The position numbers were made by a program, and so were the translations under genes. The notes beneath the pieces are model-generated. The model did not search any database, was not told the origin of the DNA, and saw only the letters and a list, made by a program, of their open reading frames with translations. Source: Rhizobium sp. L1K21 (lineage in GTDB: Bacteria; Pseudomonadota; Alphaproteobacteria; Rhizobiales; Rhizobiaceae). From it: a stretch of DNA of 64,000 nt. Positions 54,374 through 63,475 of this stretch are shown in pieces; the first letter of the stretch is position 1; every line of letters begins with the position of its first letter. Location: the NCBI RefSeq assembly GCF_024055895.1, contig NZ_JAMXLE010000001.1, positions 124,001 to 188,000 of the forward strand. The letters run 5' to 3'.

Positions 54374-55483
54374 ATGAAGAGGATCATTCTGGCCGGCGGC
54401 GGTCATGCGCATCTCATCGTGCTCGAACACCTTGCCCGTGAAGCTCTCGGAGCGGTTGAGGTTGTTCTCGTGTCACCGTCGCGATGGCAGTATTATTCGG
54501 GCATGCTGCCCGGCTGGATTGCAGGACATTACCTGAAAGAAGACTGTCGGATCGATCTTCTTCCGCTTGCCGCGCGCGCAGGCGTTCAATTTGTCGAACA
54601 ACGCCTCATTGCCATCGCTGCGGATGCAAGTCAGATCACCTTGGCCGATGGCAGCACGCTGGACTATGACTTTCTCTCCCTCGACATCGGTGCAGAGGCG
54701 CACACGCCCTGGGCGCAGGGCCTTGAAGACAGGCTTACCCCGGCAAAGCCACTCGATCAATTTCAGGTCGCCTGGGAGGCAATGCTTGAAAGCGCAAGGC
54801 AGACAGGCGCTCTCAACCTTGTGACGGTTGGCGGCGGGGCTGCCGGTGTCGAACTTTCCCTCGTTTGCAAGACGGCTCTTGATACTGCGGGTGTTGAAAC
54901 CGGGATGAGCCTCGTCATGGGGCAAAACGGTCTTCTTCATGAGCATGCGCCGGCGGTTCGAAGACGCGCCAGACGGGCGCTCGAAAATATGTGTATCAGG
55001 CTTATCGAAGGGCGTGCGCATGCAGACGGCGGTCAGCTTTGCCTCGCGTCCGGCGCGCGACTTTCGCCGGACAGGATCATTGCCGCCACGGGTGCGACCG
55101 CGCCCGCCTGGCTCGCACAGTCCGGTCTGGCGCTGGATGAAAACGGCTTCGTCATGACGGATGCGCATCTTCGCAGCATATCGCACGCCAATGTGTTTGC
55201 AGCTGGTGATATATCGTCGCGCACTGATGTCAGTTTGCCGCGTTCGGGCGTTCACGCTGTCAAGGCCGGTCCGGTTTTGGCGGGCAATCTGGCGGCGGTC
55301 TGCCGTGCGGGTTCATTGAAGCGATATAAGCCGCGAAAAAGTTCGCTCTACATCATGGCCAGTGGCAAGGAGAGAGCGATTGCCTCCTGGGGCATCTGGT
55401 CCGCCGAGGGACGGCTGATCTGGTGGTGGAAGGATTTTATCGATCGGCGTTTCATGCGCCGGTTTCAGAATGTCGGCGACTGA
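54374..55483 (+). CDS. NADH dehydrogenase-like flavoprotein, 'N-terminal to SelD' type
   Basis: The 369-residue FAD enzyme has the FAD loop ILAGGGHAHLIVLEHLAR, the middle NAD loop LVTVGGGAAGVELSLVCK and the C-terminal FAD motif ANVFAAGDISSR. The GGGHAHL start and the SRWQYYSGMLPGWIAGHY segment are characteristic of the flavoprotein domain found fused to selenophosphate synthase SelD in some organisms. Here it is free-standing and no selD is seen. It has no redox-active CxxxxC pair, so it is NDH-2/SQR-like, probably passing electrons to quinone. The gene precedes the VTT-reductase operon by 140 bases on the same strand. Confidence 0.85.
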   Translation: MKRIILAGGGHAHLIVLEHLAREALGAVEVVLVSPSRWQYYSGMLPGWIAGHYLKEDCRIDLLPLAARAGVQFVEQRLIAIAADASQITLADGSTLDYDFLSLDIGAEAHTPWAQGLEDRLTPAKPLDQFQVAWEAMLESARQTGALNLVTVGGGAAGVELSLVCKTALDTAGVETGMSLVMGQNGLLHEHAPAVRRRARRALENMCIRLIEGRAHADGGQLCLASGARLSPDRIIAATGATAPAWLAQSGLALDENGFVMTDAHLRSISHANVFAAGDISSRTDVSLPRSGVHAVKAGPVLAGNLAAVCRAGSLKRYKPRKSSLYIMASGKERAIASWGIWSAEGRLIWWWKDFIDRRFMRRFQNVGD

Positions 55484-55623
55484 GAGGCGATGGGTTTCAC
55501 GCTTTTTTGAAGTTGCTTGATGAGGCTTTTGGGATCAATTGTGCCAGTGTAGGCTGAAAGAAGAGTGAGGCGCCGGTGTGTCAGGAAAAGTGACATCATC
55601 GTCGGCTTCCGCGGAGGCAAGCA

Positions 55624-57780
55624 GTGAAGCGCGCAGTTCTGTTTTTTGTGTTGATAGCGCTCGTTGCCACGGCTTATCTGCTCTATGCCGACCGCATGCC
55701 GGGTCTCGTCGATCTGAAGAAAAATGCCGAAAGCCTCAGCAGATGGATCAATGAGAGCCCGCTTGTCGCTGCATCGGTCTATTTGATCTTATATGTAGTT
55801 GCAGTGGCATTTTCTCTTCCCATTGCAGCTTTGCTCACTTTGGCAGGCGGTGCACTTTTCGGCTTTTTGCCCGGGCTCATCATGGCTCTGTTGGCTGCCG
55901 CTGTTGGCGCATTGGTCTCGTTCCTGGTGGCGCGAACGCTGCTTCGAGAAACGGTCCAGCAGAATTTCGCGCGGCAGCTTGCCCCGATCAATGCAGGGTT
56001 GAAGCGAAATGGTGCGTTTTATCTCTTCACATTGCGGCTCATTCCCGCCTTTCCGTTTTTTGTCGTCAATCTCGTCATGGGTTTGACGCCAGTGCGCGCC
56101 TGGACGTTTTTCTGGGTCAGTCTCGTCGGCATGTTGCCCGGCACGGCGGTGTTTGCGCTTGCCGGCACGCAGCTTGCGAATATCGACAGCCTCAGCGGTA
56201 TTCTCTCGCCCGGTATTCTGTTCACCTTCGCGCTGATTGGCCTTCTGCCCTGGATTGCAAAGCTGGTGATTGCGCTTTTGAGGAGGCGCAAGGTCTATCG
56301 GGGATGGACGAAACCGAGACGCTTCGATCGGAACCTTGTCGTGATTGGTGCGGGATCAGCAGGCCTTGTCAGCACCTATCTCGCCACCGCGGTGAAGGCG
56401 AAGGTCACGCTTGTCGAAGCGGGTGAGATGGGTGGCGACTGCCTGAATTACGGTTGCGTGCCGTCAAAAGCCCTTTTGAAAAGCGCCAGGCTTGCCCATC
56501 AGATACGTCATGCTGACCACTATGGTCTCGTGCCGAGCGAACCGGCCTTTTCCTTCCGTTCGGTCATGGCGCGGATCCATGCGGTGATTGCGGAAATTGC
56601 GCCGCATGACAGTGTGGAGCGCTACGAGCAGCTGGGCGCTGAGGTGCTGAAAGGCTATGCGCGCATCAAGGACCCGTGGACGGTCGAGGTTTCGCTGAAC
56701 GGTGGCGGCGTTCGCACGTTGACAACGCGGGCTATCGTGGTTGCGACTGGTGCCTCACCTTTCGTTCCGCCATTGCCGGGCATTGAAGAAACCGGTTATC
56801 TCACCTCCGATACGCTCTGGGAAAAGCTCGCAGACCGGGATCGTCCGCCAGCGCGGCTTGTCTTATTGGGTGGCGGGCCTGTCGGCTGTGAATTGGCGCA
56901 GAGCTTTGCCCGGCTCGGTTCAAGCGTGACACAGGTTGAGAAAGGGCCGCGCCTGATCAGCCGTGAGGATGAGGATGTGTCCGAATTCGTGCGGCAGACG
57001 CTTGCGACCGATGGCGTGCGCATTCTCACGGGACACAAGGCAACCGCTTGCAAGGTCGTGGACGGCGAAAAGTATATCATTGTCGAATGCGATGGAGTTC
57101 AGGAGGAGATTGCCTTCGATGAGCTGATCTGTGCAGTGGGGCGCGTGCCGCGGCTGAAAGGCTTCGGCCTTGAAGCGATCGGCGTGAAGACCGGGCGCAC
57201 CATCGAGACGAATGAATATCTGGAAACGCTGTTTCCCAATATCCTGGCCGCCGGCGATGTGGCCGGACCTTATCAATTCACGCACACGGCCTCGCATCAG
57301 GCCTGGTATGCTTCGGTCAATGCACTGTTTGGTGATCTCAAGCGCTTCAAGGCTGATTATCGCGTGATCCCCTGGACGACCTTTGTCGATCCGGAAGTCG
57401 CGCGTGTCGGTCTCAACGAGCAGGAGGCGCGCGAACAAGGGCTGGAGGTCGAGGTCACACGCTACGGGCTGGACGATCTGGATCGGGCAATCGCGGACGG
57501 GAATGCACGCGGCTTCGTGAAGGTTCTCACCCTGCCGGGCAAGGACCGCATTCTTGGTGTCACCATTGTGGGCGAACATGCGGGCGATCTTCTGGCCGAG
57601 TTTGTTCTGGCCATGAAACACGGTCTTGGCCTGAACAAGATTCTCTCCACCATCCACACCTATCCCACCATGGCGGAGGCCAATAAATATGCTGCAGGTG
57701 CCTGGCGGCGCGCGCATGTCTCGCCAAGGATCACGGCGTTTCTGGAACGCTATCATCGCTTTTGGCGTGGAGCTGCGTGA
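55624..57780 (+). CDS. Fusion of VTT/TVP38 membrane domain to a dithiol flavin reductase
   Basis: The 718 residues join two proteins. Residues 1-225 form a VTT (TVP38/TMEM64, DedA-like) domain with about six helices, including LTLAGGALFGFLPGLIMALL and FTLRLIPAFPFFVVNLVMG. Residues 235-715 form a group-I pyridine nucleotide-disulfide oxidoreductase with FAD loop VVIGAGSAGLVS, redox-active GGDCLNYGCVPSK (Cys273, Cys278), NAD loop LLGGGPVGCELAQSF, and the partner-subunit base pair in STIHTYPTMAE (His678, Glu685). It resembles lipoamide dehydrogenase or mercuric reductase but lacks any HMA domain. It overlaps the next gene by one base. The substrate disulfide is unknown; the GTG start has GAGGCAAG upstream. 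Confidence 0.93.
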   Translation: MKRAVLFFVLIALVATAYLLYADRMPGLVDLKKNAESLSRWINESPLVAASVYLILYVVAVAFSLPIAALLTLAGGALFGFLPGLIMALLAAAVGALVSFLVARTLLRETVQQNFARQLAPINAGLKRNGAFYLFTLRLIPAFPFFVVNLVMGLTPVRAWTFFWVSLVGMLPGTAVFALAGTQLANIDSLSGILSPGILFTFALIGLLPWIAKLVIALLRRRKVYRGWTKPRRFDRNLVVIGAGSAGLVSTYLATAVKAKVTLVEAGEMGGDCLNYGCVPSKALLKSARLAHQIRHADHYGLVPSEPAFSFRSVMARIHAVIAEIAPHDSVERYEQLGAEVLKGYARIKDPWTVEVSLNGGGVRTLTTRAIVVATGASPFVPPLPGIEETGYLTSDTLWEKLADRDRPPARLVLLGGGPVGCELAQSFARLGSSVTQVEKGPRLISREDEDVSEFVRQTLATDGVRILTGHKATACKVVDGEKYIIVECDGVQEEIAFDELICAVGRVPRLKGFGLEAIGVKTGRTIETNEYLETLFPNILAAGDVAGPYQFTHTASHQAWYASVNALFGDLKRFKADYRVIPWTTFVDPEVARVGLNEQEAREQGLEVEVTRYGLDDLDRAIADGNARGFVKVLTLPGKDRILGVTIVGEHAGDLLAEFVLAMKHGLGLNKILSTIHTYPTMAEANKYAAGAWRRAHVSPRITAFLERYHRFWRGAA

Positions 57781-58436
57781 TGATTGATCGCTATATTCTG
57801 CCGATCCAGAAGCGCTTATTGCAGCCTTTGGCCAACCGGCTGGTCGAACACGGCGTTTCGGCCAACATGATCACGATCACCGGCTTTGTTATCGGCATGA
57901 CAGCACTGCCGCTTCTGGCGCTTCAGCAATATGTGCTGGCGCTGGTGGTGATCCTGGTCAACCGTTTTCATGATGGGTTGGACGGGGCGGTGGCGCGTTC
58001 CACGTCGCCGACGGATCGCGGTGCGTTCATGGATATTGCGCTCGATTTCTTCTTTTATGCCACCGTACCGCTCGGCTTTGCCATTGCTGATCCGCAGGCC
58101 AATGCGTTAGCCGCGGCCACCCTGATCACTGCTTTTGTGGGAACCGGTTCGAGTTTTCTCGCCTTTTCCGTCATGGCGGGCAAGCGCGGTCTTGCAGCGC
58201 AAGACTATCCGCAAAAGGGAATTTACTACCTCGGCGGCCTCACGGAAGGTGCGGAAACCATTGCCTTCTTTGCCGTCATGTGCCTGCTGCCCGGCCGCTT
58301 TGCCGAACTTGCGTATGTGTTCGCAGCCCTATGCCTGCTCACCACCGTGACCCGTTGGGTTCAGGGATGGCAGACCTTCAAGACCAGTGATGATCCGTCT
58401 GCGATGGCCGATCACACTGCCAATGAAAAACCATGA
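57780..58436 (+). CDS. CDP-alcohol phosphatidyltransferase, YnjF-like
   Basis: This membrane enzyme transfers a phosphatidyl group from a CDP-linked donor to an alcohol. The full catalytic motif is visible, DGLDGAVARSTSPTDRGAFMD then IALD, i.e. D-x2-DG-x2-AR-x8-G-x3-D-x3-D. The 218 residues hold about five to six helices. The acceptor alcohol is unknown. The frame opens at 57762 within the previous gene, but ATG 57780 overlaps its stop (TGATG) and is the start. Resemblance to YnjF and the YnjBCD neighbours is the main reason for the name. Confidence 0.9.
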   Translation: MIDRYILPIQKRLLQPLANRLVEHGVSANMITITGFVIGMTALPLLALQQYVLALVVILVNRFHDGLDGAVARSTSPTDRGAFMDIALDFFFYATVPLGFAIADPQANALAAATLITAFVGTGSSFLAFSVMAGKRGLAAQDYPQKGIYYLGGLTEGAETIAFFAVMCLLPGRFAELAYVFAALCLLTTVTRWVQGWQTFKTSDDPSAMADHTANEKP

Positions 58437-59644
58437 AAGTCAGGATGCCGATGAAATACTGCCTCACGCTCTCCGCCGCTTTTCTTGCGGCCAGTTCCTC
58501 GCTTGCCGCTGCGGAAGATTGGAATGCTGTGCTCGAAAAGGCCAAAGGTCAGACGGTCTACTGGAATGCCTGGGGTGGCGACGAGCGCACCAATGCCTTT
58601 ATCAGTTGGGTGGGCGAGCAAACGGAAGCGCTTTATGGCGTGAAGGTCAGTCAGGTGAAGCTCTCGTCAACATCTGACGCGGTCAATCGGGTGATTGCCG
58701 AAAAGGAAGCGGGCAAGACAGAGGGTGGCTCGGTTGATCTCATCTGGATCAACGGTCCCAATTTTCTTTCCATGAAGGAAAAGGGTTTGCTCTTTGGTCC
58801 CTTCGCCCAATCGCTTCCCAACGCCAAATTTCTGGATCTGACGCCGGCCTCGGCCAACTCGGTCGATTTTACTGTGCCGGTGGAGGGCTATGAATCGGCT
58901 TGGCGGCTGGCAAAGTTTGTTTTCAACTATGACAGTGCGCGGGTGGAGGAGCCGCCGAAGTCCATGCCGGCGCTTCTCGATTGGGCAAGAGCACATCCGG
59001 GGCGTTTCACCCATCCGAGTGTGTCCGACTTCATGGGGGCTACATTCCTCAAACAGGCGTTGATCGAACTCGCGCCGGACCCATCTGTTTTGCAGTCGCC
59101 CGTCAGCGATGCCGATTTTGAAAAGACCGTTGCGCCGCTCTGGACCTGGTATGATGCACTGAAACCCAATCTCTGGCACGGCGGCAATGATTTCCCCGAA
59201 AATGAAGCAGCGCTCAGGCAGCTTCTCAACGATGGTGAAGTCGATATCGCCCTGTCTTTCGATCCGGCCAGTGCGGCTGCTGCGGTGGAGCAGGGCAGTT
59301 TGCCGGAAAGCGTGCGCACCTATGCGCTTGATGGCGGAACCATCGGCAATTTCAGCTTTGTTGCCATCCCATTCAACGCAGCCAACAAGGAAGGCGCCCA
59401 AGTGGTCGCCAATTTCCTTATCGACCCTGCCACGCAGGCGCATATGCAGGATATCCGTGTTCTCGGCTCCTTCTCGGTGCTCGACTGGGCGAAGCTCGAT
59501 GCTGAAAGCCGACAGGCATTTGAGGGCTTGCCAAAGTCACCGTCATTGCCCGAAATCAAGGATCTGGGCAAAACGCTTCTTGAGCCGCACCCCTCTTGGA
59601 TGACGCGGTTGAGCGAGGAATGGGCAAAACGCTATACCAAATGA
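58433..59644 (+). CDS. ynjB: ABC transporter substrate-binding protein, YnjB-like
   Basis: A 403-residue periplasmic binding protein with a signal peptide (FLAASSSLAAA-EDW) and the YnjB features KGQTVYWNAWGGDERTN, VDLIWINGPNFLSMKEKG and DIALSFDPASAAAAVEQG. It belongs to the thiamine/iron/spermidine (type 2) binding-protein group, but YnjB-type proteins bind an unknown ligand. The ATG at 58433 overlaps the previous gene by four bases; ATG 58445 and 58451 are alternatives. It leads directly into ynjC. Confidence 0.9.
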   Translation: MKVRMPMKYCLTLSAAFLAASSSLAAAEDWNAVLEKAKGQTVYWNAWGGDERTNAFISWVGEQTEALYGVKVSQVKLSSTSDAVNRVIAEKEAGKTEGGSVDLIWINGPNFLSMKEKGLLFGPFAQSLPNAKFLDLTPASANSVDFTVPVEGYESAWRLAKFVFNYDSARVEEPPKSMPALLDWARAHPGRFTHPSVSDFMGATFLKQALIELAPDPSVLQSPVSDADFEKTVAPLWTWYDALKPNLWHGGNDFPENEAALRQLLNDGEVDIALSFDPASAAAAVEQGSLPESVRTYALDGGTIGNFSFVAIPFNAANKEGAQVVANFLIDPATQAHMQDIRVLGSFSVLDWAKLDAESRQAFEGLPKSPSLPEIKDLGKTLLEPHPSWMTRLSEEWAKRYTK

Positions 59645-61350
59645 GGCTGAGAGGAAGCCATGTGCTGACCGCACTCGTTGCGGTCATTGTCGGCGGCGGT
59701 CTGGTGCTGCCCATATTCGTTGGGCTCGCGCAGACGTTTTTGCCGGCCTTCGGCATTCTGGATGCGGTGGGGGGCGAGCGGTTCAGCCTCGAGCCCTGGC
59801 GAAAGCTCTTTGCACTTCCGGGCTTTGGTACAAGCCTGCGGCTGTCGATCACCAGCGGCCTTGTTGCGACGTTCCTGTCGCTTGCGCTTGCAGCCTGTTT
59901 CTTCGCCGTATTTGGTGGGCGTGCGCGGCAGGGTCTCCTGCGAAAGTTCATGACGCCCCTGCTGGCTTCACCACATGCCGCCGTTGCCATCGCTATGGCC
60001 TTTCTCATCGCGCCTTCGGGGTGGATATTCCGCTTGCTGAGCCCCTGGGCCACAGGTCAAACCTATCCGCCGAATATCATCATCGTTCATGATCCGCTGG
60101 GGCTTTCTCTCATCCTTGGGCTGGTGGTGAAGGAAACGCCATTTCTGCTTTTCATGATGGCGGCAGCCCTCAAGCAGGTTCGGGTGGCTGATCATCTGAA
60201 AATGGGCCGCTCGCTCGGCTATGGTCGCGCCAGCACATGGTTTCGCATCATCTTTCCGCAGGTCTATCCGCAAATCCGGCTGGCGGTTTATGCCGTTCTC
60301 GCCTTTTCGTTGTCGGTGATTGATGCAGCCCTCATTCTCGGTCCCAACAATCCGCCACCGCTTGCGGTGCAGACGCTGCGCTGGTTTTCCGACCCGAATT
60401 CGGCAATGATCCTGCCGGCGGCGGCCTCGGCTGTGCTGCAGCTTCTTGTGATTCTTGGCGCTATTGCCCTTTGGTGGGTTGCAGAGCGCCTTATCGTGCT
60501 GGTGGGAAGGCTAAGGATTGACGGTGGTGTTCGCTCCGCGTGGCTCGAGCCTACCGCACGCCTCATCGGTCGTTTTACGGTCATCCTCGTGGGGCTTGGA
60601 ATTGCGGGCCTAGTCGGCCTCGTGATCTGGTCGCTGACGTGGCGGTGGCGCTTTCCTGATGCATTGCCGGAGGCCTGGAGTCTCAAGATCTGGGGCGCGG
60701 TTGCCGGTGAATGGCTGCCTGCACTCACCACCACCGCGCTGATTGGTGCCGTTTCGACGCTGCTTTCGCTTTGCCTGGCCATTGCCTGGCTGGAGGCGGA
60801 AGACCGTGCAAACAGGCCAAGGCGGGGACTTGCGGCTTTTGTCATTTATTGGCCGCTCATTCTGCCGCAGACGGCCTTTTTGTTCAGCCTTCACATCGCA
60901 TTTCTCCGCACTGGATTTGGCGGTGGCCTTGTTTCTGTTATCTGGGTGCACATGTTCTTCGTTTTTCCCTATGTCATGCTGGCTCTGGCCGATCCGTGGC
61001 GGGCGCTTGACCGGCGTTATGCGCGGGCGGCGGCCTCGCTCGGCCATTCGAAGGGGGATATTCTCTTGCGCATCAAATTGCCGCTTCTGCTGGGTCCGTT
61101 GATGGCTGCTGCTGCCGTGGGATTTGCGGTGAGTGTGGCGCAATATCTTGCAACGCTCACGATCGGCGAGGGGCGCATCGTGACGTTGACAACTGAGGCT
61201 GTTGCGCGTTCGTCTGGCGCGGATCGGCGTATCATCGCCGTCTTCGCAAGTCTGCAGGCGCTCCTGCCGATGCTTGTTTATGTCCTTGCGCTTTTGCTGC
61301 CGGCCATCCTCTATGCGCGCCGTAGAGGGCTGTTGGGAGATCAGGCATGA
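59641..61350 (+). CDS. ynjC: ABC transporter permease, YnjC-like double unit
   Basis: The 569-residue permease is a tandem fusion of two MetI-type units, with about 12 helices. Two EAA-type loops are seen, DHLKMGRSLGYGRASTWFRI in the first half and RYARAAASLGHSKGDILLRI in the second (before KLPLLLGPL). This layout resembles FbpB/ThiP-type permeases and E. coli YnjC. The ATG at 59641 overlaps the ynjB stop by four bases. The substrate is unknown. Confidence 0.91.
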   Translation: MRLRGSHVLTALVAVIVGGGLVLPIFVGLAQTFLPAFGILDAVGGERFSLEPWRKLFALPGFGTSLRLSITSGLVATFLSLALAACFFAVFGGRARQGLLRKFMTPLLASPHAAVAIAMAFLIAPSGWIFRLLSPWATGQTYPPNIIIVHDPLGLSLILGLVVKETPFLLFMMAAALKQVRVADHLKMGRSLGYGRASTWFRIIFPQVYPQIRLAVYAVLAFSLSVIDAALILGPNNPPPLAVQTLRWFSDPNSAMILPAAASAVLQLLVILGAIALWWVAERLIVLVGRLRIDGGVRSAWLEPTARLIGRFTVILVGLGIAGLVGLVIWSLTWRWRFPDALPEAWSLKIWGAVAGEWLPALTTTALIGAVSTLLSLCLAIAWLEAEDRANRPRRGLAAFVIYWPLILPQTAFLFSLHIAFLRTGFGGGLVSVIWVHMFFVFPYVMLALADPWRALDRRYARAAASLGHSKGDILLRIKLPLLLGPLMAAAAVGFAVSVAQYLATLTIGEGRIVTLTTEAVARSSGADRRIIAVFASLQALLPMLVYVLALLLPAILYARRRGLLGDQA

Positions 61351-61991
61351 AGGCGCTCGTGCTGAACCAGGTGACAATCATGCTGAGGGCGAGCCACCAG
61401 GCGCTTATTCACGACCTGAGCCTTTCTGTCGCGCCCGGTGAGGTTACCACGATCATGGGGGCCAGCGGGTCGGGAAAATCCACCCTCTTGAATTTCATCG
61501 GAGGGCATCTCGATCCTGCTTTTGTTGCGCAGGGGCAAGTCTCAATCGGTGACAGGGTTTTGAATGCTCTTCCTGCAGAGGCGCGGCAGATCGGCTTTCT
61601 TTTTCAGGACGATATGCTTTTTCCGCACCTTTCTGTTGGTTCCAATCTCGCTTTCGGGCTCGCTGCATCCGTCAGGGGCAGACGGCTCAGACGCGAGCGG
61701 GTGGAGGCAGCCCTGTCTATCGCAGGTCTCTCCGGTTTCTATGATCGCGATCCCGCCACGCTGTCGGGTGGCCAGCGGGCGCGGGCAGCGTTGATGCGGA
61801 CGCTTCTTGCCGAGCCGAAGGCGCTTTTGCTGGACGAACCGTTTTCCAAACTCGATCAGGAAATGCGTGATGACATGCGCCGCTTTGTCTTTGAACATGC
61901 GCGAGAACAAGATCTGCCGGTTCTCCTGGTGACGCATGATGAAGCCGACGCCAGAGCGGCAAGCGGACCGATTGTTCGACTGCAGGGTTGA
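61347..61991 (+). CDS. ynjD: ABC transporter ATPase, YnjD-like
   Basis: The 214-residue ATPase has Walker A GASGSGKSTLL, Q-loop IGFLFQDDMLFPHL, signature LSGGQRARAALMRTLL and Walker B ALLLDEPFSKLD, then the switch His in LLVTHDEADA. It is short for the family and lacks a C-terminal regulatory domain, as does E. coli YnjD. Its ATG overlaps the ynjC stop by four bases. It completes an importer with YnjB and YnjC. Confidence 0.92.
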   Translation: MKALVLNQVTIMLRASHQALIHDLSLSVAPGEVTTIMGASGSGKSTLLNFIGGHLDPAFVAQGQVSIGDRVLNALPAEARQIGFLFQDDMLFPHLSVGSNLAFGLAASVRGRRLRRERVEAALSIAGLSGFYDRDPATLSGGQRARAALMRTLLAEPKALLLDEPFSKLDQEMRDDMRRFVFEHAREQDLPVLLVTHDEADARAASGPIVRLQG

Positions 61992-62062
61992 AGGCGCTTG
62001 ATTCTCTGCACGAAAAGGGAAAAATTGTTTGTATACGAGCTAATCAGGGCGGTCGAACAGAC

Positions 62063-63475
62063 ATGATAAAGCGCTTTTTCATTGCCGGTCTTTTGCTTTT
62101 CCTGTCTGGCGGTCTGGCATTTGCGCATGTGGGCACCAGCGGCTTTGTGCTCCTTCTCCCCTCGCGGTTTTATATGCTGGGGGCGGCACTCGCCGTGGCT
62201 GCGTCATTCCTCCTGCTGGCCTTTCTCCCCCAGCGGGCGGCGAAACGGATGCTGACAGAGCCAAAGCCACTCGTCAGGCTGCCGACCTTGCCTTTTCCAC
62301 TCTTCAGTCTTGTCTCTTTCCTGTTGCTGTTGTCTTTCGTGGTTTACGGTTTTACGGGCCCCGGCGATCCCTTTGAAAACCCGATCACGCTTTTCATTTG
62401 GATTGTCTGGTGGATTGTCTTCACGCTTGTCCAGGTGGTGACGGGTGAATTGTGGAGCACCTTCAATCCGTGGAGCGGTGTTGCCTGGATTGTGCGTTTT
62501 GGACGGGACCAAGGTAAAGCCATCCTGATGCTTCCGGCAGGCCGGGGCTATTGGATCGCTATCGTGCAGTTTCTTGCCTTCGCCTGGCTGGAGCTTGTCA
62601 GCACCTCCGCCTACGATCCGGAAACGCTGGCCACGGCAACAGTACTCTTCTGGTGCTTCAACTTCGCCGGTATTCTGATTTTCGGCGAGCGGCGCTGGCT
62701 GGCTGAGGCAGAACCGTTCAGCGTCTTTTTCGGGCTGGTCGGGGCGCTCTCACCGTTTGAGCGAAAAAGAGAGGCGGAAAGCGGACGGACAGGCATTTCT
62801 CTCGTGTGGCCGGGCAAGAGCCTTATCAAGCGCGAGGCGCTTCCGCTTGGTGGTTCTCTCTTCGTTTTGCTTACCCTGTCTACCGTTTCTTTCGACGGGT
62901 TTTCCAACACGTTCCTCTGGGTCAGTTCACTTGGTCTCAACCCGCTGGAATTTGAAGGGCGCAGTGCGGTTACCATGCCGATGTCGGTCGGTCTTATCGT
63001 CGCCTTTGCACTACTGGCAGGTTTGTTTTATCTCTGTGTATATGGCGGCAAGATGCTTGCTGGCGCCGAGGAGGCTCTGATCCCTCTGGCGGGGCGGCTG
63101 GTCTACAGCATCCTGCCAATTTCCATCGTCTTTCAATTCGCACATTACCTGACCTATCTTCTGGTTCAGGGGCAGTATGCGCTGAAGCTTGCTTCCGACC
63201 CGTTCGGTCGAGGATGGGACCTTTTCGGAACGACGGATTGGCAGGTCACCACCTCGTTCTTCTACGGCTATGGCAGCGTACTTGCGATCTGGAACGCCCA
63301 GACCGCGGCCATCGTATTGGGCCATCTTATCGGCATCACGATGGCGCATCTGATTGCGCTGGACATATTTCGTGACAACCGCAAAGCTGTCCGCAGCCAG
63401 ATTTTTCTGGCCGGGCTGATGGTGGCCTATACAGCCTTCGGGCTTTGGCTCTTGAGCAGCCCGAAAGTGGGCTGA
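62063..63475 (+). CDS. Polytopic membrane protein of unknown function
   Basis: The 470-residue protein begins with a signal-like helix (MIKRFFIAGLLLFLSGGLAFA region) and has about 11-12 helices in total. Notable conserved-looking stretches are GPGDPFENPITLFIWIVWWI, GELWSTFNPWSGVAWIVRF and YGYGSVLAIWNAQTAAIV. They recall a family sometimes labelled 'fenitrothion hydrolase' in actinobacteria, a name I do not trust. ATG 62063 is used; a TTG at 61988 overlapping ynjD would add 25 residues. It is 71 bases after ynjD on the same strand, so it likely belongs to the operon. Confidence 0.75.
   Translation: MIKRFFIAGLLLFLSGGLAFAHVGTSGFVLLLPSRFYMLGAALAVAASFLLLAFLPQRAAKRMLTEPKPLVRLPTLPFPLFSLVSFLLLLSFVVYGFTGPGDPFENPITLFIWIVWWIVFTLVQVVTGELWSTFNPWSGVAWIVRFGRDQGKAILMLPAGRGYWIAIVQFLAFAWLELVSTSAYDPETLATATVLFWCFNFAGILIFGERRWLAEAEPFSVFFGLVGALSPFERKREAESGRTGISLVWPGKSLIKREALPLGGSLFVLLTLSTVSFDGFSNTFLWVSSLGLNPLEFEGRSAVTMPMSVGLIVAFALLAGLFYLCVYGGKMLAGAEEALIPLAGRLVYSILPISIVFQFAHYLTYLLVQGQYALKLASDPFGRGWDLFGTTDWQVTTSFFYGYGSVLAIWNAQTAAIVLGHLIGITMAHLIALDIFRDNRKAVRSQIFLAGLMVAYTAFGLWLLSSPKVG

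Follow-up and report, generated by a model that had tools for sequence, protein, structure and literature searches.

What would a solute importer do beside an enzyme of phospholipid headgroup chemistry, and why are the two kept in the same genomes even where their genes lie apart? The question is raised by a locus at positions 54374-63475 of a 64,000-nucleotide stretch of DNA from Rhizobium sp. L1K21 (hereafter the window), in which relatives of the Escherichia coli importer proteins YnjB, YnjC and YnjD and of the phosphatidyltransferase YnjF are encoded together with a flavoprotein and a membrane-bound redox fusion. We report that the YnjBCD-YnjF pairing is near-obligate and that the redox fusion is common to arsenosugar loci; these two points are new, while the component parts and the E. 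coli relative of the locus are known. With modest confidence, we propose that YnjBCD and YnjF perform two steps of one pathway, in which a polyhydroxylated headgroup would be imported and joined to cytidine diphosphate (CDP)-diacylglycerol, with the fusion acting as a dithiol reductase.

YnjB and YnjF share genomes

Two genome samples carry the main result. Among 249 genomes from the window's order, with YnjB counted by its curated cut-off and the YnjF subfamily by profile A3 (E<=1e-25), YnjB is present in 69 and YnjF in 75, and 66 carry both where 20.8 would be expected (Fisher 2.9e-46); YnjB was matched in 92 of these genomes, and the 23 below the cut-off are left out of the counts. Among 279 genomes of Pseudomonadota (YnjB at E<=1e-60, YnjF at E<=1e-25), the corresponding numbers are 28, 33 and 27, with 3.3 expected (Fisher 1.1e-30). 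Counted by genus, YnjB and YnjF each occur in 32 of the 112 genera of the order sample and share 29; in the phylum sample they occur in 20 and 24 of 145 genera and share 19. A patchily distributed control gene, TIGR04283, shows no such excess with YnjB in the same 279 genomes and in fact co-occurs with it less than expected (4 versus 13.1; Fisher 0.0002).

Physical linkage differs between the samples. YnjF lies within 10 kilobases (kb) of YnjB at only 8 of 68 order loci (from 70 places over the cut-off, the second place in G222 and the window's own not included), and the two genes are at most 5 kb apart in 20 of the 27 phylum genomes that have both. Because co-occurrence persists where the genes are mostly unlinked, the importer and the transferase are retained together per genome and not merely via linkage.

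A third view comes from the best 80 of at least 595 relatives recovered in a species-genome scan with the YnjB alignment; these loci are mostly from Rhodobacterales, many of their contigs end less than 10 kb from YnjB, and their genes were called by codon score and checked visually against the annotation of locus L007. Within 10 kb of YnjB, YnjC was found at 75 of the 80, YnjD at 69, a YnjF-type transferase at 46, the VTT fusion at 18 and the TIGR03169 flavoprotein at 3. The flanking genes vary between YnjB loci, and flavoprotein, fusion, YnjF and YnjBCD occur together on plasmids of Pseudooceanicola algae, Falsirhodobacter algicola and Citrobacter amalonaticus. The initial annotation had held that the same gene types travel together in distant bacteria, to be refuted if they did not co-occur beyond chance, and this is borne out: the genes adjoin in loci with differing flanks and YnjB and YnjF co-occur far above expectation, so the recurrence exceeds chance.

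Carriers of YnjB and YnjF cluster within some families. In the order sample, the window's own family is represented by nine other genomes, none of which has YnjB over the cut-off (in G187 the score is 92 bits, with 203 required), and the 13 same-family genomes in the phylum sample, namely those nine and four more, have no YnjB at E<=1e-60 and no YnjF at E<=1e-25. Plasmids of Ciceribacter and Rhizobium bear the whole set or parts of it, and inheritance of the set in this family is likely patchy and perhaps mobile.

A rearranged operon related to an E. coli locus

The open reading frame (ORF) list and domain scans with Pfam and NCBIfam resolve seven same-strand ORFs spanning 54374-63475, which agrees with the co-directional arrangement of flavoprotein, fusion, transferase and importer first described:

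54374-55483, + strand: stand-alone TIGR03169 flavoprotein of 369 aa (NCBIfam cut-off passed, 345.3 versus 310 bits), accessory
55624-57780, + strand: VTT/DedA membrane domain fused to a pyridine-nucleotide-disulfide oxidoreductase (VTT-PNDR fusion; PF09335 82.6 bits, PF07992, PF02852; GTG start)
57780-58436, + strand: YnjF-type CDP-alcohol phosphatidyltransferase (PF01066; 52% identity to E. coli YnjF)
58433-59644, + strand: YnjB, periplasmic solute-binding protein (alternative start 58445; NF008633 486.5 bits versus a cut-off of 203)
59620-61350, + strand: YnjC, fused double permease (two BPD_transp_1 stretches; ATG start, ORF open from TTG 59596)
61347-61991, + strand: YnjD, ATP-binding cassette (ABC) ATPase (PF00005 110.3 bits)
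62063-63475, + strand: polytopic membrane protein of no recognised family, excluded from the conserved set

Four joints had been described as overlapping by one or four bases, and three of them stand: fusion and YnjF have one base in common (57780), and overlaps of four bases join YnjF to YnjB (58433-58436) and YnjC to YnjD (61347-61350). The fourth, between YnjD and the last gene, falls away, as it needs a start at TTG 61988; ATG 62063, 75 bases later, is preferred because a signal peptide is evident there and homologue matches begin there, and with this start the gap is 71 bases. YnjB and YnjC overlap by 25 bases when YnjC starts at ATG 59620 (the YnjC reference used in the relatives' alignments, the IMG/VR search and the E. 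coli comparison started one codon earlier), and 140 bases separate the flavoprotein gene from the fusion. A promoter and terminator scan gave 1 and 12 sites versus 3.1 and 13.8 in shuffled sequence, with no excess. GC content is 58.3% in the operon versus 56.3% upstream, which does not settle horizontal transfer, and base composition was rejected as proof of it.

The window locus is a real operon and a rearranged variant of a known E. coli locus without an assigned function. In E. coli K-12 the order is ydjX, ydjY, ydjZ, ynjA, ynjB, ynjC, ynjD, ynjE, with ynjF on the opposite strand. The proposed relation between the two loci was confirmed by direct comparison for YnjF (52% identity over 202 aa), YnjB (41%), YnjC (42%, C-terminal 139 aa only) and the VTT part versus YdjZ (31% over 153 aa), and rests on order and family for YnjD. 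The E. coli locus differs in having two unfused VTT proteins, the ferredoxin-like YdjY, the AhpD-like YnjA and the sulfurtransferase YnjE, whereas the window has the VTT-PNDR fusion and the TIGR03169 flavoprotein, with all genes on one strand; YdjY, YnjA and YnjE are absent from the window genes at 53.0-64.0 kb, the part of the genome searched for them by ORF list and Pfam.

Publications on the E. coli genes, cited here from the portions available, list ydjXYZ-ynjABCD as FNR-activated (PMC3688515), place ynjA and ynjB among the mildly raised genes of a BaeR list (PMC2731931), and include YnjBCD under a COG name for a transport system that is uncharacterised (PMC9207381). Mutation of ynjC leads to higher fitness under colistin by a mechanism not established there (PMC9184624), ynjB deletion is listed with mildly lower ciprofloxacin tolerance (PMC13131330), and ynjC is in an infection screen list for uropathogenic E. 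coli (PMC11495030). These last three observations are compatible with a role in the envelope without deciding the matter; the colistin effect, in particular, does not single out the pathway proposed here. In the available portions of the literature naming these genes, we found no substrate for the proteins of the locus. The label "undescribed system" thus calls for caution, because the fusion, the YnjBCD name, the FNR regulation and the ynjC colistin effect are already in print; it would hold for the YnjB-YnjF pairing and for the arsenosugar link, the latter absent from the initial annotation and found in this analysis. Among the matches listed, mostly titles and abstract starts, neither this pairing nor the sharing of the fusion with arsenosugar loci came up in any publication.

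The last gene had been counted as part of the set, a membership that we reject. Its product has no match in Pfam or NCBIfam; the gene occurs in 22 of the 249 order genomes and in six of the nine other same-family genomes, and in five other genomes with YnjB over the cut-off the two genes are separated by megabases or placed on different contigs. We judge the protein to be a bystander. Separately, in 10 of 12 fetched relatives (L219, L220, L222-L229) a gene of this type stands beside a five-gene set whose sizes suit an ABC importer of the branched-chain-amino-acid type; Pfam confirmed three of these genes, in L222 alone.

Predicted structures of the transferase and the binding protein

CDP-alcohol phosphatidyltransferases carry the motif DxxDGxxAR...GxxxDxxxD, and the window YnjF contains it. 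Across 47 rows, D65, D68, G69, A72, G81, D85 and D89 are invariant and R73 is kept in at least 90%; the family has invariants of its own besides the catalytic motif, E156, G157, E159 and T160. The YnjF model (predicted local distance difference test, pLDDT, 89.5) finds its closest solved folds in inositol-phosphate transferases and AF2299 (Z 18-20). It resembles phosphatidylinositol-phosphate synthase (5d92, 6wm5) and archaeal DIPPS (4mnd) over 183-189 aligned residues (root-mean-square deviation 2.1-2.7) as well as in the CDP-alcohol motif, and differs from them in its 21-22% identity and in the E156, G157, E159 and T160 peculiar to its family.

The YnjB model (pLDDT 93.9) matches mostly sugar or glycoside binders among the 50 solved chains listed (Z 26-28, 9-16% identity), including binders of trehalose/maltose, xylo-oligosaccharide and chitin oligosaccharide, and also of glycerophosphocholine, sulfoquinovosyl-glycerol and dinucleotides; a PDB sequence search gave no match at E<=0.01. 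Eight Trp residues are invariant across 54 rows. Together, the modelled YnjB and YnjF folds point to a polyhydroxylated substrate, and to no single compound.

The redox fusion and its arsenosugar settings

A VTT domain fused to a redox domain had been recognised from the outset. The fusion itself stands, and its designation as a flavin reductase does not: a pyridine-nucleotide-disulfide (dithiol) oxidoreductase fits better. The redox cysteine pair C273 and C278 and the His/Glu pair H678 and E685 are invariant in 10 of 10 fusions. MerA has a vicinal cysteine pair at its C-terminus; the C-terminal tail of the window fusion has no Cys, and MerA-type mercury reduction was rejected on this absence and on a TIGR02053 score of 377.6 versus 454.45 bits. 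The architecture is that of the NCBI "Bifunctional TVP38/TMEM64 family protein/FAD-dependent oxidoreductase" (COG0398 with PF07992/PF02852), annotated on plasmids. It has been described as the most frequent fusion among COG0398 DedA proteins (PMC10127716), and the available part of that publication does not mention a YnjBCD-YnjF context. The accompanying flavoprotein passes the cut-off for TIGR03169, a domain found elsewhere as the N-terminal part of a fusion to SelD according to the NCBIfam model name, but here it stands alone, with no SelD over the cut-off in the genome. It is near YnjB at 3 of the 80 loci, 2 of the 68 order loci and 4 of 25 phylum loci (from 28 YnjB genomes, the window's own, G041 and G473 left out).

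The fusion profile matches 46 of the 279 phylum genomes (E<=1e-160), with the window protein matched at full length; within the 46, the match in G264 covers the reductase part only and those in G262, G354, G359 and G446 have one stop inside. YnjB occurs in 14 of the fusion genomes (4.6 expected) and TIGR04283 in 34 (21.6 expected), and every one of the 46 has TIGR04283, YnjB or YnjF. TIGR04283 was counted at E<=1e-30, which gives 131 genomes, 120 of which pass the curated cut-off; the "arsenosugar" names of TIGR04282 and TIGR04283 are NCBI annotation and are taken as given. ArsS (TIGR04167), the radical S-adenosylmethionine (SAM) enzyme that catalyses adenosylation of arsenic in arsenosugar synthesis (PMC12159101, in the part available), is present in 24 of the 30 fusion genomes without YnjB or YnjF and in none of the 34 genomes with either, an avoidance that is perhaps partly taxonomic. 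Where the fusion and ArsS are both present, they are no more than 10 kb apart in 9 of 24 genomes, and the same is true of the fusion and YnjB in 9 of 14. In the four genomes with both YnjB and TIGR04283 (G262, G292, G323, G467) the two are 2.4-22.8 kb apart and ArsS is absent.

Individual loci show the same sharing. On an Acinetobacter portensis plasmid (L234) the fusion, 56% identical to the window protein, adjoins arsS, DUF547, TIGR04283 and TIGR04282, with mtnP near, and on a Burkholderia glumae plasmid (L232), where the arsenosugar locus is partial, the fusion (50%) is near TIGR04282, TIGR04283 and mtnP. These arsenosugar loci also resemble the window in part through flavoprotein, AhpD-like and bufferin neighbours. 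In neither stretch was YnjBCD or YnjF seen, and L232 also shows no ArsS. Conversely, the window genome has the fusion and neither of the other markers searched: ArsS reaches 30.4 bits versus a cut-off of 300, with none at E<=1e-60, and no TIGR04283 match reaches E<=1e-30. A NupC-type nucleoside carrier adjoins the fusion and YnjF, in the usual place of YnjBCD, at two loci, one in Sphingopyxis sp. FD7 and the other in G324, a genome with no YnjB at E<=1e-60.

A proposed pathway and its alternatives

The initial annotation had coupled solute import to a lipid headgroup reaction, and this is also the reading that we favour. We infer the direction of transport, the class of substrate, the lipid product and the role of the fusion as follows. 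In the periplasm YnjB would capture a polyhydroxylated solute that probably resembles a glycoside, and YnjC and YnjD would carry it inward, where the membrane enzyme YnjF would link the solute or its product to CDP-diacylglycerol, giving an unusual phospholipid and cytidine monophosphate. The VTT-PNDR fusion may serve the same chemistry as an NAD(P)H-dependent dithiol reductase anchored in the membrane, where it possibly holds a thiol- or arsenic-bearing headgroup in the reduced state, and its VTT part would perhaps shift lipid between leaflets; the TIGR03169 flavoprotein would be an optional helper. Five observations argue for this pathway: co-occurrence that survives without adjacency, the 10 changes that adjacency of YnjF requires on the best YnjB tree (FastTree, 153 rows), the motif and fold of YnjF, the fold and eight Trp of YnjB, and the NupC-type carrier that replaces YnjBCD.

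Several points weigh against it. In the order sample, 9 of 75 YnjF genomes lack YnjB over the cut-off and 3 of 69 YnjB genomes lack YnjF (in the phylum sample, YnjB is alone in G323 and YnjF in six genomes), and the co-occurrence counts are corrected for kinship to the genus level only. The nearest folds of YnjF share only 17-23% identity and their acceptors are phosphorylated, and a binding-protein fold leaves the ligand of YnjB unfixed. The coupling of the fusion to the importer is looser, because the fusion is not near most YnjB loci (18 of the 80, none of the 68 order loci and 8 of the 25 phylum loci). Many branches of the YnjB tree, on which adjacency requires 15 changes for VTT and 8 for TIGR04283, lack support, and independent-pairs tests on the adjacency labels favoured neither side. 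Finally, the annotation of ynjC for thiamine, sulfate or thiosulfate and the reduced uptake of one of two cationic dyes on its deletion (PMC9184624, in the part available) would suit another cargo.

A more specific version, which we regard as unlikely, is that YnjBCD-YnjF takes up arsenosugars (dimethylarsinoyl ribosides, among them the glycerol arsenosugar of seaweed) or arsenic-bearing nucleosides and builds them into arsenosugar phospholipids. It is suggested by the three alternative neighbours of one fusion (ArsS, YnjBCD and the NupC-type carrier) and by the existence of arsenosugar phospholipids (PMC7345539, in the part available). One riboside would then come interchangeably from ArsS synthesis, from import by YnjBCD or through the NupC-type carrier. 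The fusion, which occurs in each of these settings, would hold arsenic or the thiols that carry it in the reduced state at the membrane, and YnjF would be an arsenosugar-phospholipid synthase of which E. coli would own a version. The absence of the searched arsenosugar markers from the window genome speaks against this, and the avoidance of ArsS can be taken as the mark of different systems. We also know of no arsenosugar phospholipids made by E. coli.

To a similar degree improbable is a metal or thiol stress island, in which genes co-induced by copper, mercury, oxidants or arsenic would each guard the envelope alone, with no common metabolite. Several plasmid loci are indeed flanked by bufferin-type DUF692, DUF2063 and DoxX genes (the NF050167 bufferin maturase passes its cut-off in L012) and by sigma-70 factors, AhpD-like proteins, thioredoxin and CcdA, and the BaeR and FNR listings of the E. 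coli genes are consistent with such a view. Such stress genes stand at some loci only, however, with DUF692 at 2 of the 80, 2 of the 68 and 2 of the 25, and an island of independent guards does not predict that 66 of the 69 genomes with the importer also have the phosphatidyltransferase, mostly without linkage between the two.

It is somewhat less likely again that YnjBCD is an ordinary importer for a nutrient such as thiamine, a polyamine, a phosphonate or a sugar, that YnjF is an ordinary enzyme of phospholipid metabolism, and that their co-occurrence is a lineage effect. YnjD scores best with the thiamine model ThiQ (162.6 bits versus a cut-off of 245.05) and YnjC with the ModB, PotC and PhnV models, all below cut-off, and the concentration of carriers in some families would suit shared descent; the sharing seen by genus and the lack of any excess for TIGR04283 argue the other way. 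A selenium system, with flavoprotein and importer handling a selenium compound, is very improbable and was rejected: E. coli selD lies about 6 kb from ynjF and TIGR03169 has its SelD-fused form, but the window genome has no SelD over the cut-off (best match 37.2 bits versus 125) and TIGR03169 (E<=1e-50) occurs in only 20 of the 64 genomes bearing YnjB, YnjF or the fusion.

The favoured pathway of import and headgroup transfer bears on E. coli K-12, which has the same importer and headgroup enzyme: the pairing suggests that the ligand of YnjB may be what YnjF puts on lipid, and it might explain the effect of ynjC mutation on colistin fitness. Were the ligand an arsenosugar, the conversion of such sugars into arsenosugar phospholipids in marine food webs would become testable, as would a gut-bacterial route for seafood arsenic.

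Other forms of the importer locus

Importer and VTT fusion are found on plasmids of Klebsiella, Salmonella, E. coli, Citrobacter and Providencia (plasmid records H31-H51, H118-H139), and in the two stretches examined, L012 and L240, both typed conjugative, YnjF adjoins them. The bufferin-type genes DUF692, DUF2063 and DoxX border L012, L232, L239, L240, L244 and L252, a hint of copper or metal exposure. A viral home was sought with the window YnjC alone, a query that reaches close relatives only; peptide patterns picked out 11 IMG/VR stretches, none of which codes for a relative.

A radical SAM/SPASM protein that falls in no named family is near YnjB at 13 of the best 80 of at least 595 loci (L046, L049, L054-L056, L059, L062, L063, L072, L081, L087, L088, L094), with no YnjF called nearby at any of them, and at two of the 68 order loci (L154, L200). 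The candidate identity of this protein (c1) as ArsS was rejected, one comparison giving superfamily likeness at most. A second form of the importer locus, in which an APH-type kinase and TIGR04283/TIGR04282 flank YnjBCD with no YnjF nearby, is seen in L242, L243, L051, L067 and L089. In G082, which lacks YnjB over the cut-off, an 8-oxoguanine deaminase that passes its own cut-off follows the VTT fusion and YnjF (L262, 10318-11676). Two further loci, L217 and L218, have a divergent order of CDP-alcohol transferase, ATPase, binding protein and two separate permease-size ORFs.

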